This document shows positions 676 to 4,076 of a DNA stretch of 8,824 bases, piece after piece. Where the stretch lies: positions 1-8,824 of the forward strand of contig JAGTWP010000054.1 in the NCBI GenBank assembly GCA_018260755.1. The letters run 5' to 3'. Position 1 is the first letter of the stretch; each line of letters opens with the position of its first letter. Position numbers and translations under genes: made by a program. Below the pieces are notes generated by a model that was not told the origin of the DNA, searched no databases, and saw only the letters and a program-made list of their open reading frames with translations. The stretch is from Candidatus Altarchaeum sp. GTDB lineage: Archaea > Altiarchaeota > Altiarchaeia > Altiarchaeales > Altiarchaeaceae.

Positions 676-2430
676 TCAGACCTGTTTTTTCATCTTCTCA
701 AAAATCCTTTTATAAATTTCACTTTCCCCCTTATTTGTTTTATCACTCAATTTATATAATCGTTCAACAATCAGTTCCGGTGTGCTCTTCCCGATTTTAT
801 TAAATTTTGGCTGCCTGTCAACAATTAAATTCAATTGTTCATCAAGTCCCGTTGCTTCTATTCCGTCAACTCTCACGTCCTTACTCACATGCTTTAAAAT
901 TTCATCGCTCAAATGCGTAACAATTACCGCAAAATCATCATTTTCAATTAAAATTTCAAAAATTGCTGAAATCATTTTTGCAGCCGCACCCGGCTCTGTA
1001 ATTGCTTCCAGTTCATCCATCAGCACGAGTTTTTTACTCTTTGAAATTAAAATTTTTGCGATGGCTTTTAAGGTTGATTCAAATGCCCCAGCACTCAATG
1101 TTCCTGTATGTTTGCTTAAAAAATAAATTTCATCAAAAACCGGAAATTCGCAGGACTCTGCACAAACAGGAAGTCCGCTTTGTGCTAGAATCTGAATGTG
1201 CAAAATTGTTTTAAGCAGAGTTGTCTTTCCGCCGGAATTTGCACCGGTAAGCATTGATATTTTTCTTCTTTCAATCTCACCGCCGAGAGAATAGGTTATT
1301 GCAGCTGAATTATTGAGCAGCAGATTTTTCGCCCCTTTAAAAAACAAAACATCACTTATTTTAGGCATTACTGCTTTATTATCATTCGCAAATTTAACGA
1401 TTCCCAAAATTTCGTCAAGAGAATAAATTTCCTCACATAATTGCTCAATGAGCTCAAATTTTATCAGTTTCTTCGCCGACTTAACTTTGTATTCATATTC
1501 CGTCTCTAAAATTTCCCTGTTTGTTTCATTTAAAAATTTTTCTATTTCACCTTCATCAACCGTTACTGGATAGTTCTTTTCAAAAACGAAAAACATAACC
1601 GTCTTGTTAATAAAAAAATTTTCCGAAATTTCTGCAATGTATTTTTCAGTAATCGTCTTGATGATTTCGCTGATTTCCGGAATTTGTGATATGCTGTCCA
1701 TGTTTTTCATCAAAAGTTCCTTTGCATCTATCCTTATTGCTCTTTTTTCAACTTCTTTCAGTATTTCGGAATTTATTTTATCTTTGTGTTCGTAAATGAT
1801 GCCCTTGAAATTTTTTATTAATCTTTTTTTTCGGCTTATTTCTTCGGTAGTGATTTCGCATTTTTCATTTATACTTACAACAATATCTGAAATTTCTTTT
1901 AATTTTTCAATACCTGTATTTGCTGTATTATGCACTTCAATACCTTGTTGTTGCAGCAATGAATAAATTTCATAAATTTTTTTAATTGTTTCTTTATTTG
2001 AAGCAAAATTTATAATAAAAAATTCAGGAAGTATTTCTTCAACAGGCATATCCGGATTTGCCATAACTATTTGCTGCCTTTCATCAATATCCTCATTGCT
2101 ATTGCTAATTCTTAAATCGCAGTATTTTTTGAGCCACATAAATCTCTCGTAACTCTCATCATCCGGCACAATAACAACTCTGTCAACAAAGAAATCGCCG
2201 GCTTTCTTTAATTCAAAATCAGTTAAATTTTCTCTTATTTTGTCTATTGTTGCACTGTCAATCCGGCTGTATTTTGAAATTTTATTTTGCATCGCCAGTA
2301 TGTCTTTTGCATCGCTAAATAAATCGGGGGAAAATTTTTCCCTGCCTTTTTTTGTGATTATATACTTTTTGATTACCTCGGAGACCTCTTTATATATTAC
2401 TTTTGCATCGGATGTTTTGAGAACAGACAT
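676..2430 (-). CDS. Archaeal MutS-like ATPase (MutS domain V family, no mismatch-recognition domain)
   Basis: A 584-residue protein whose C-terminal third is a MutS-type ABC ATPase: Walker A GANSGGKTTLL (from residue 396), a conserved TGTLSAGAFESTL segment, Walker B VLMDELEAITEPGAAA (catalytic D472-E473), and a following VTHLSDE histidine loop. Residues from roughly 150 to 350 are charged and helix-rich, consistent with the MutS core and clamp helices. No N-terminal mismatch-reading domain (the Phe-x-Glu domain of MutS1) is visible. The sequence resembles the archaeal MutS-related/MutS2-like proteins rather than canonical MutS. As I recall some relatives carry an N-terminal helix-hairpin-helix domain, which is not evident here. 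The start is fixed because an in-frame TAA lies four codons upstream. No mutL neighbours it. A role in recombination, branched DNA or ribosome-associated work is possible; classical mismatch repair is unlikely. No Shine-Dalgarno sequence precedes the ATG. Confidence 0.85.
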   Translation of the reverse strand: MSVLKTSDAKVIYKEVSEVIKKYIITKKGREKFSPDLFSDAKDILAMQNKISKYSRIDSATIDKIRENLTDFELKKAGDFFVDRVVIVPDDESYERFMWLKKYCDLRISNSNEDIDERQQIVMANPDMPVEEILPEFFIINFASNKETIKKIYEIYSLLQQQGIEVHNTANTGIEKLKEISDIVVSINEKCEITTEEISRKKRLIKNFKGIIYEHKDKINSEILKEVEKRAIRIDAKELLMKNMDSISQIPEISEIIKTITEKYIAEISENFFINKTVMFFVFEKNYPVTVDEGEIEKFLNETNREILETEYEYKVKSAKKLIKFELIEQLCEEIYSLDEILGIVKFANDNKAVMPKISDVLFFKGAKNLLLNNSAAITYSLGGEIERRKISMLTGANSGGKTTLLKTILHIQILAQSGLPVCAESCEFPVFDEIYFLSKHTGTLSAGAFESTLKAIAKILISKSKKLVLMDELEAITEPGAAAKMISAIFEILIENDDFAVIVTHLSDEILKHVSKDVRVDGIEATGLDEQLNLIVDRQPKFNKIGKSTPELIVERLYKLSDKTNKGESEIYKRIFEKMKKQV

Positions 2431-2454
2431 CTTATTTTTTTACAAATAATAAAT

Positions 2455-2491
2455 TTACTAATCAATTATATCAATTATAAATTACTAATCA
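2455..2491. repeat. Short direct repeats in the mutS-like promoter region
   Basis: TTACTAATCA occurs at 2455-2464 and again at 2482-2491. Between and partly overlapping them, ATCAATTAT is tandemly duplicated at 2461-2469 and 2470-2478. The set lies 25 to 61 bp upstream of the mutS-like start and overlaps its candidate TATA box, so it could be an operator. The DNA is very AT-rich and short repeats of this kind can arise by chance. Confidence 0.4.
2475..2482 (-). promoter_or_regulatory. Candidate TATA box of the mutS-like gene
   Basis: On the minus strand this reads ATTTATAA, a good match to the archaeal TATA element, about 45 bp before the ATG at 2430. Initiation about 25 bp downstream would give a leader of roughly 20 nt. 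The surrounding sequence is AT-rich, so alternatives exist. Confidence 0.3.
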
Positions 2492-2533
2492 GGCAAAAAT
2501 AACAATCTTTCTATTTTTATCTCAAAATGCAAT

Positions 2534-2560
2534 TTTTAGTAGTGATAAAGAAGTAATGCT
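2534..2560 (+). repeat. 27-nt motif, copy 1
   Basis: Starts TTTTAGTAGTG and ends AAGTAATGCT. It matches copy 2 at 22 of 27 positions and the reverse complement of copy 3 at 23 of 27. The last ten bases are identical in all three copies. Confidence 0.8.
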
Positions 2561-2563
2561 ATT

Positions 2564-2587
2564 TTAAATATTAATTGTAATATTTAA
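2564..2587. repeat. Perfect 10-bp inverted repeat with 4-nt loop
   Basis: TTAAATATTA (2564-2573), loop ATTG, then TAATATTTAA (2578-2587). It occupies the interval between motif copies 1 and 2. It is all A/T in the stem, so hairpin stability is modest; it could be a cruciform or a dyad binding site. Confidence 0.6.
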
Positions 2588-2596
2588 GAGTATAAA

Positions 2597-2623
2597 AATT
2601 GGTGGTGATAAACAAGTAATGCT
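2597..2623 (+). repeat. 27-nt motif, copy 2
   Basis: Same orientation as copy 1 and 63 bp downstream of it, start to start. Its left part reads GGTGGTGATAAA where copy 1 has AGTAGTGATAAA. It ends with the same AAGTAATGCT. Confidence 0.75.
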
Positions 2624-2710
2624 GAATATTAACACATTTTTATCACAGTCATTTAAATTGAGTAAAAATTTAAAATTTTCTGGTATAAGCAATGTGATTT
2701 ATTTTTGATG

Positions 2711-2737
2711 AGCATTACTTATTAGCCACTACTAAAA
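2711..2737 (-). repeat. 27-nt motif, copy 3 (inverted)
   Basis: On the plus strand it begins AGCATTACTT and ends CACTACTAAAA, the inverse of copies 1 and 2. Copies 1 and 3 could pair as the stem of a large fold-back. Confidence 0.78.
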
Positions 2738-2760
2738 GAATTATCATATTTTTTATAACG

Positions 2761-2797
2761 ATAAAAAAATAAAAATAACAGGCAAAAAAGATTGCCT
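2761..2797 (-). terminator. Hairpin plus T-rich tail after the DEAD-box helicase
   Basis: Reading on the minus strand 17 nt past the helicase stop, a stem AGGCAA / TTGCCT (plus-strand 2780-2785 and 2792-2797) encloses a 6-nt loop and is followed by GTTATTTTTATTTTTTTAT. This looks like a bacterial-style intrinsic terminator, and the T-rich tail alone would suit archaeal termination. Confidence 0.55.
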
Positions 2798-2813
2798 ATA
2801 TGTGTTTGAAACT

Positions 2814-4076
2814 TTACCATCTCTTATTATTTCTTGACCTTGAAAAACTTTTATATTTTGATGATGGTCTGTCTCCTTCCCGTCCCCCTCCGGATCTGCC
2901 TCGTGATCTGCTGCTGCCGCGATAATCGCCTCTATGTTCGTGTTCTGTTTCCGTCATGACAAAGCTCACATGTTCAAACTGCGAGTTTTTAACTTTATGA
3001 ACGGACAAAAAATTATCTCCGAAAATTCTTCTTATATTTCCGCTATCCCTACCGGTCAATAAAGAAATTGCTTTTCCTTCGGTTCCTGCCCTCGCAGTTC
3101 TTCCGATTCTGTGAACATACTCCTCCGGCGTTCTTGGCAAATCATAATTTATTATGGAACTTATATTCTTTACATCTATTCCCCGTGCAGCCACATCAGT
3201 TGCCACCAAAACATTAATTTTTCCATTCTTGAATGCATCCATAATCTGGTTTCGTTTATATTGTGAAATCCCCCCGTGAAGTGCCTCTGATTTTATATTT
3301 TGTTTGTTGAGATTTGTATTTACCATATCAACAAAATTCCGGGTGCCACAGAAAATAAGTGTTAATCCTGTTTGCTCTTTTTTTAGCAGATGAACTAATA
3401 AAGAAAATTTATCGTCTTTGCTTACTTCGTAATAACTCTGAATAAGTTTTGTCCGGTCTACATATTGTCTTAAAGTAATCTTTTCAGGATCATTAAGATA
3501 TTTTCTCGCTATTTTCATTATTTCGGTAGGCATTGTTGCACCGAATAATAACTTTTGGCTGTTTTTCGGAACTTCAGCGATAATTTTCTTTATATCTTCA
3601 ACAAATCCCATGTCAAACATCTTGTCCGCTTCATCAAGAACAAGTATTTTTATTTCATATAAATCAAAAGTTCCCCGTGAAAGATGGTCTAAAAGCCGTC
3701 CCGGAGTACCTACTATCACATCAGCTCTTCTTAAATTTGCCACCTGTGGGCCCATAGGCATCCCTCCGTAGATTTCAACTATGCTCGTTTTTCTGTATTT
3801 TGTAAATTTTTTAAATTCTCCGGCAACCTGTGTGCAAAGTTCCCTTGTCGGAACGATAACCAACATTTGTATTCCGTCTTTAGGCAAGACCTTTTCAAGT
3901 GATGGCAAACCGTACGCTGCGGTCTTTCCCGAACCGGTATATGCCAAACCGACTATATCTTTTCCTTGTTGTATCAAAGGGATACATCTTTCCTGTATTT
4001 CAGTTAACTCTGTATATTTCATGTCAACTATTGCTTTCTCAAACTCCGGTTGTAGAGTTACTCCTTTTGTATTCAT
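2814..4076 (-). CDS. DEAD-box ATP-dependent RNA helicase with RGG/RS-rich tail
   Basis: A 420-residue cytoplasmic RNA helicase that unwinds or remodels RNA using ATP; archaeal relatives assist ribosome assembly, RNA turnover and cold adaptation. Both RecA lobes are complete: Q motif around F12 and Q28, motif I AYTGSGKT (45-52), Ia PTREL (76-80), GG (104-105), Ib TPGR (124-127), II DEAD (148-151), III GAT (179-181), IV LIFCGT (240-245), ARGxD (297-301) and VI HRIGRTAR (322-329). The C-terminal tail from about 382 is rich in Arg, Gly and Ser, typical of a flexible RNA-binding extension. Motif III is GAT where nearly all family members have SAT. The start codon gives a normal short extension before the Q motif. 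It is transcribed divergently from cdc48 and ends in a hairpin/T-tract. A specific subfamily symbol (deaD, rhlE) is not assigned. Confidence 0.95.
   Translation of the reverse strand: MNTKGVTLQPEFEKAIVDMKYTELTEIQERCIPLIQQGKDIVGLAYTGSGKTAAYGLPSLEKVLPKDGIQMLVIVPTRELCTQVAGEFKKFTKYRKTSIVEIYGGMPMGPQVANLRRADVIVGTPGRLLDHLSRGTFDLYEIKILVLDEADKMFDMGFVEDIKKIIAEVPKNSQKLLFGATMPTEIMKIARKYLNDPEKITLRQYVDRTKLIQSYYEVSKDDKFSLLVHLLKKEQTGLTLIFCGTRNFVDMVNTNLNKQNIKSEALHGGISQYKRNQIMDAFKNGKINVLVATDVAARGIDVKNISSIINYDLPRTPEEYVHRIGRTARAGTEGKAISLLTGRDSGNIRRIFGDNFLSVHKVKNSQFEHVSFVMTETEHEHRGDYRGSSRSRGRSGGGREGDRPSSKYKSFSRSRNNKRW

Follow-up and report, generated by a model that had tools for sequence, protein, structure and literature searches.

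A repeated 27-nt motif beside a mutS-like gene of a Candidatus Altarchaeum-like archaeon points to a family of IS1-type MITEs

Introduction

The contig stretch of Candidatus Altarchaeum sp. analysed here (8,824 nt in full length, termed the window) carries, in the intergenic DNA beside a mutS-like gene, three copies of a 27-nt motif, two of them direct (2534-2560 and 2597-2623, plus strand) and one inverted (2711-2737, minus strand). This arrangement raises the question whether the copies are parts of a mobile element, binding sites of a regulator or initiator sites of a replication origin. All three possibilities had been put forward in an earlier note made from the sequence alone, the mobile element being conceived as a MITE of 204 bp with inverted ends and an internal subterminal copy. 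As to the surroundings, the mutS-like gene and a DEAD-box helicase gene (window 676-4076) are adjacent here and not adjacent in the relatives examined. The nearest named records to the mutS-like protein, 77-79% identical, stem from Candidatus Altarchaeum MAGs.

Results

All three motif copies are present, with pairwise identities of 22/27 (copies 1 and 2), 23/27 (copies 1 and 3) and 19/27 (copies 2 and 3). As a chance control, the 383-bp intergenic stretch served as the model for 1000 first-order Markov sequences; direct matches of at least 22/27 occurred in 16 of them, inverted matches of at least 23/27 in one and both together in none. Moreover, the core motif occupies 42 sites of the own genome (G000) at up to 3 mismatches, compared with none for the reversed pattern. 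Identities, chance control and genome-wide count thus confirm the observation of two direct copies and an inverted one. The edges ascribed to the copies had to be moved; judged from other copies the outer boundaries lie at 2538 (copy 1), 2601 (copy 2) and 2733 (copy 3), and the terminal 'TTTT' that had been included in the 27-mer belongs to the AT-rich flanking DNA.

A whole-genome search with window positions 2500-2780 as query returned 33 matches. Near-identical copies of the window element start at copy 2 and stop at copy 3, so that the unit comprises the 133 bp from 2601 to 2733 (Table 1). They include a 96% identical copy at G000:C57:8770-8911, a copy at G000:C14 with 95% identity over the element and 89% identical copies in the relative G001. 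The terminal inverted repeats (TIRs) are imperfect, ca. 23 nt long and close to GGTARTGATAAANAAGTAATGMT. No open reading frame of at least 60 aa overlaps the element, which folds as DNA into a hairpin (z = -3.6). The genome-wide motif search proposed in the earlier note did reveal many dispersed copies, and empty sites exist at the level of the family (see below), but the unit is 133 bp and not 204 bp in length.

Table 1. Features in and around the repeated motif, in window coordinates
Feature	Coordinates	Strand	Basis
mutS-like gene (downstream neighbour, listed for context and not part of the element)	676..2430	-	PF00488 MutS_V, 45.1 bits (cut-off 30.2)
Remnant left end of a sister element (copy 1)	2538..2570	+	match to C64 end, multiple alignment
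Left flank of the 133-bp element, without intact target duplication	2593..2600	+	TAAAAATT vs. AAAAGAAT, 5/8
Complete 133-bp non-autonomous IS1-type element (MITE)	2601..2733	+	near-identical copies, multiple alignment, DNA hairpin
Left TIR of the 133-bp element (copy 2)	2601..2623	+	TIR pattern, 1 mismatch; outer edge from other copies
Right TIR of the 133-bp element (copy 3)	2711..2733	-	core pattern, 3 mismatches; C57 copy ends on the same base
Separate dispersed short repeat adjoining the element (AAAAGAATTATCATATTTTTTATAACGATAAAAAAATA)	2734..2770	+	occurrence with and without element

Over 32 bp, copy 1 is 94% identical to the left terminus of an IS1-type relic (C64:8929-9023), and it is also similar to the ends of two ca. 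130-bp elements at C42. Based on these similarities, copy 1 is a partnerless left-end remnant that is separate from the 133-bp element. Its right limit at ca. 2570 is approximate, and a weak likeness to left ends of insertion sequences (IS) may reach as far as ca. 2600.

On its other side, the element is abutted by a short repeat, AAAAGRATTATCATACTTTATATAACGATAAAA, which is found at 2734-2770 of the window and also at C14, C72, C7, C59, C42, C9, C66, C56 and C46. This 37-bp repeat adjoins element copies at C14, C72, C7 and C59, whose other flanks differ, and is present without the element at C42, C9 and C66. In five MITE copies drawn from two subfamilies, one flank is this repeat whereas the opposite flank varies in sequence, a one-sided sharing which simple insertion does not explain. 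Two further short sequences flanking elements (flank queries 926-974 and 22-82) are also highly repeated and are possibly REP-like repeats, one occurring chiefly in the relatives and the other chiefly in the own genome.

The family consists of subfamilies of ca. 102-151 bp and a few larger forms, distributed over the own genome and three genomes of the same genus. Matches to the TIR pattern were obtained in 6 of the 41 genomes searched, two of which lie outside the genus and contain one 3-mismatch match each; among these 41 genomes the family is confined to the four of one Ca. Altarchaeum-like genus. One exact match to the TIR pattern on a viral contig of 135 kb (L219:768-790) was left out of the family count, and no IS1 relative was found there.

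The parent of the family is represented by an 840-bp element at G002:C180:456-1295, in which an IS1 transposase gene is enclosed by the same TIRs. Its transposase frame contains one in-frame TAA near the C-terminus, and its flanks match at 6/8 positions. An uninterrupted relative of this transposase (246 aa) is encoded at G003:C42 together with one TIR, a second TIR not being found within the 3.5 kb examined; the protein scores 191.9 bits against NF033558 (IS1; cut-off 100) and 94.7 bits against PF03400 (cut-off 24.1). Parent and MITE are connected by internal-deletion forms. A 211-bp copy at C64 retains the last ca. 25 transposase codons at one end and the left end of the parent (99%) at the other, and the copies at C42 have kept similar C-terminal transposase remnants. 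For the 133-bp subfamily, a likeness to a parent IS could be established at one end (38 bp with 84% identity at G001:C20) and not for the rest of the interior. In the own genome, an 85% complete assembly, only fragments of a transposase of the IS1 parent type and no intact one were found, so that its copies may now be immobile. At C64, an N-terminal relic of the parent IS adjoins another relic of IS1 type (L021:2570-3338 in G000:C64), which is bounded by GGGAGTGTTAAC...GTTAACACTCCC and has an interrupted transposase frame.

Mobility is documented at the family level. The 28 paired elements analysed were picked for two visible TIRs and are not fully independent, five of them being near-identical copies in G003. 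Their flanks matched better than under permutation for a length of exactly 8 bp (4.86 versus 3.67 on average), a value as high being reached in 0 of 20,000 permutations (p<5e-5). For 9 bp the excess was weak (p 0.027), and for 7 or 10 bp there was none. A target duplication of 7/8 or 8/8 flanks 7 of the 28 elements. In addition, the MITE at G003:C9 is inserted in a sequence that is itself repeated, and the paralogues at C98 and C125 represent clean empty sites, in which the two flanks are joined by just one AAAATTTT.

At the window itself, the flanks of the element match at 5/8 positions for 8 bp and at 7/9 for 9 bp, and an ancestral empty site is not recoverable among the relatives examined because the gene order around the element is not conserved in them. 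As neither a target duplication nor an empty site is visible, this insertion is old or rearranged. The assignment of 2601-2733 relies on family membership rather than on a duplication or an empty site of its own. Judged by its sequence, the segment is non-coding and belongs to a MITE family of many copies, with ends corresponding to those of a single-ORF IS1-family element of the same genus.

In the relative G003, ends of the same family enclose a different type of gene. A 1333-bp unit (L131:678-2010, corresponding to G003:C109:23677-25009) consists of the family TIRs, 21 nt at 90% identity, placed around an intact gene for the RNA-guided nuclease TnpB, whose uninterrupted frame encodes 395 aa and scores 340.8 bits against guided_TnpB. 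The unit is flanked by a perfect 8-bp duplication, AAACATAA, and the orthologous site in the own genome (G000:C15) is empty with one AAACATAA. Elsewhere in the four genomes of the genus, no close homologue of the protein turned up; G003 encodes four distant TnpB-like genes with 22-29% identity to it.

Discussion

With high confidence, we explain the repeated motif by an IS1-type MITE family, of which 2601-2733 is one element and copy 1 a separate left-end remnant. According to the mechanistic scenario derived from the sequences, an IS1-family transposase would have bound the 23-nt TIRs in trans and put the elements into AT-rich intergenic DNA, leaving 8-bp target duplications behind. Copy 1 is the left end of another member that was left over after loss of the right end, and the 133-bp element presumably went in beside or into this remnant. 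The target duplication and the ancestral site at the window would have been lost since the insertion. In this way, a previously unexplained repeat of an uncultivated archaeal lineage can be assigned to a defined family of transposons, for which a parent and intermediates as well as target duplications and empty sites are at hand.

The earlier suggestion of a MITE thus holds for the kind of element, in view of the dispersed copies, the IS1-type parent, the 8-bp duplications and the empty sites, but not for its geometry. That the whole span of 196-204 bp from copy 1 to copy 3 moved as one unit, in which copy 2 would serve the transposase as an internal binding site, might be suggested by copies 1 and 3 forming the best inverted pair (23/27). 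However, other family copies begin at the edge of copy 2 and the flanks of the 196-bp span match at 3/8 positions only, so that copy alignment and flanks together speak against the 204-bp span as the mobile element and we reject such a unit as highly improbable. Nor is copy 1 to be seen as a subterminal binding site; it is an independent left-end remnant. Somewhat different is the notion that the MITE has been co-opted since, serving its neighbour for instance as a promoter or as a transcript end, to which the intergenic site and the strong DNA hairpin (z -3.6) would be suited. It is very unlikely in view of a locus that is not conserved in relatives and of the lack of any RNA family match above the gathering score. 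A structured RNA was also considered and rejected, just two sub-threshold Rfam matches being obtained, both outside the element.

The two proposals that dispense with mobility fare no better. For an operator array, with the three motifs as binding sites for a regulator of the mutS-like gene, their location ca. 110-300 bp upstream of its start codon appears favourable, but the motifs are absent upstream of the mutS-like orthologues in two Altarchaeum records (L077, L078). The copies that such an array should show in front of orthologous genes are therefore missing there and dispersed elsewhere, and the proposal is rejected as extremely improbable. Orthologous helicases in two relatives are also devoid of copies, the 42 sites are spread across many unrelated loci, and the paired elements bear IS-type ends and 8-bp target duplications. 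An array of replication initiator sites could be imagined for a repeated motif in an AT-rich intergenic stretch; we give it practically no credence, as the six genes of the window include neither cdc6 nor orc1, the local GC skew simply tracks the gene strand, and copies are dispersed over dozens of places.

The MITE family, to which the evidence leads back, can be related to several known systems. With the single-ORF type of IS1 (NF033558; PF03400) the parent shares one ORF with a zinc-ribbon N-terminus and a DDE domain, a size of ca. 840 bp and short TIRs. Target duplications of IS1 are usually 8-9 bp long, and the 8-bp duplication of the non-autonomous copies fits this length. Unlike IS1, the window copy lacks a transposase gene, and its TIR sequence is a peculiarity of this genus within the set of 41 genomes searched. 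In Sulfolobus, the MITEs SMN1 and SM3A are short non-coding TIR elements moved in trans via ISC1733 and ISC1058 (PMC3718332). By analogy, the present family may be understood as the same combination of a short non-coding TIR element, a related full IS and movement in trans, and differs by its IS1-type ends and its Altarchaeum-like host. In their titles and abstracts, the papers found on Altiarchae and transposases give no sign of a MITE family described from there.

The element is mostly ordinary, although ends of this type carry TnpB in one relative. The TnpB unit makes it probable that IS1-type ends can move cargo; if so, TnpB would have travelled as the passenger of a TIR-type element of the DDE class that belongs neither to IS200/IS605 nor to IS607. 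The presence of TnpB within IS1-type ends is relevant to the still open question of what links TnpB genes to certain transposons. TnpB elements have been described as devoid of TIRs and target duplications and, in bacteria, as limited to IS200/IS605 and IS607 (PMC3627910). The unit of G003 resembles these elements in its TnpB gene, which here is the cargo, and differs from them in that its TIRs are of IS1 type, that a duplication of 8 bp flanks it and that an empty site exists.
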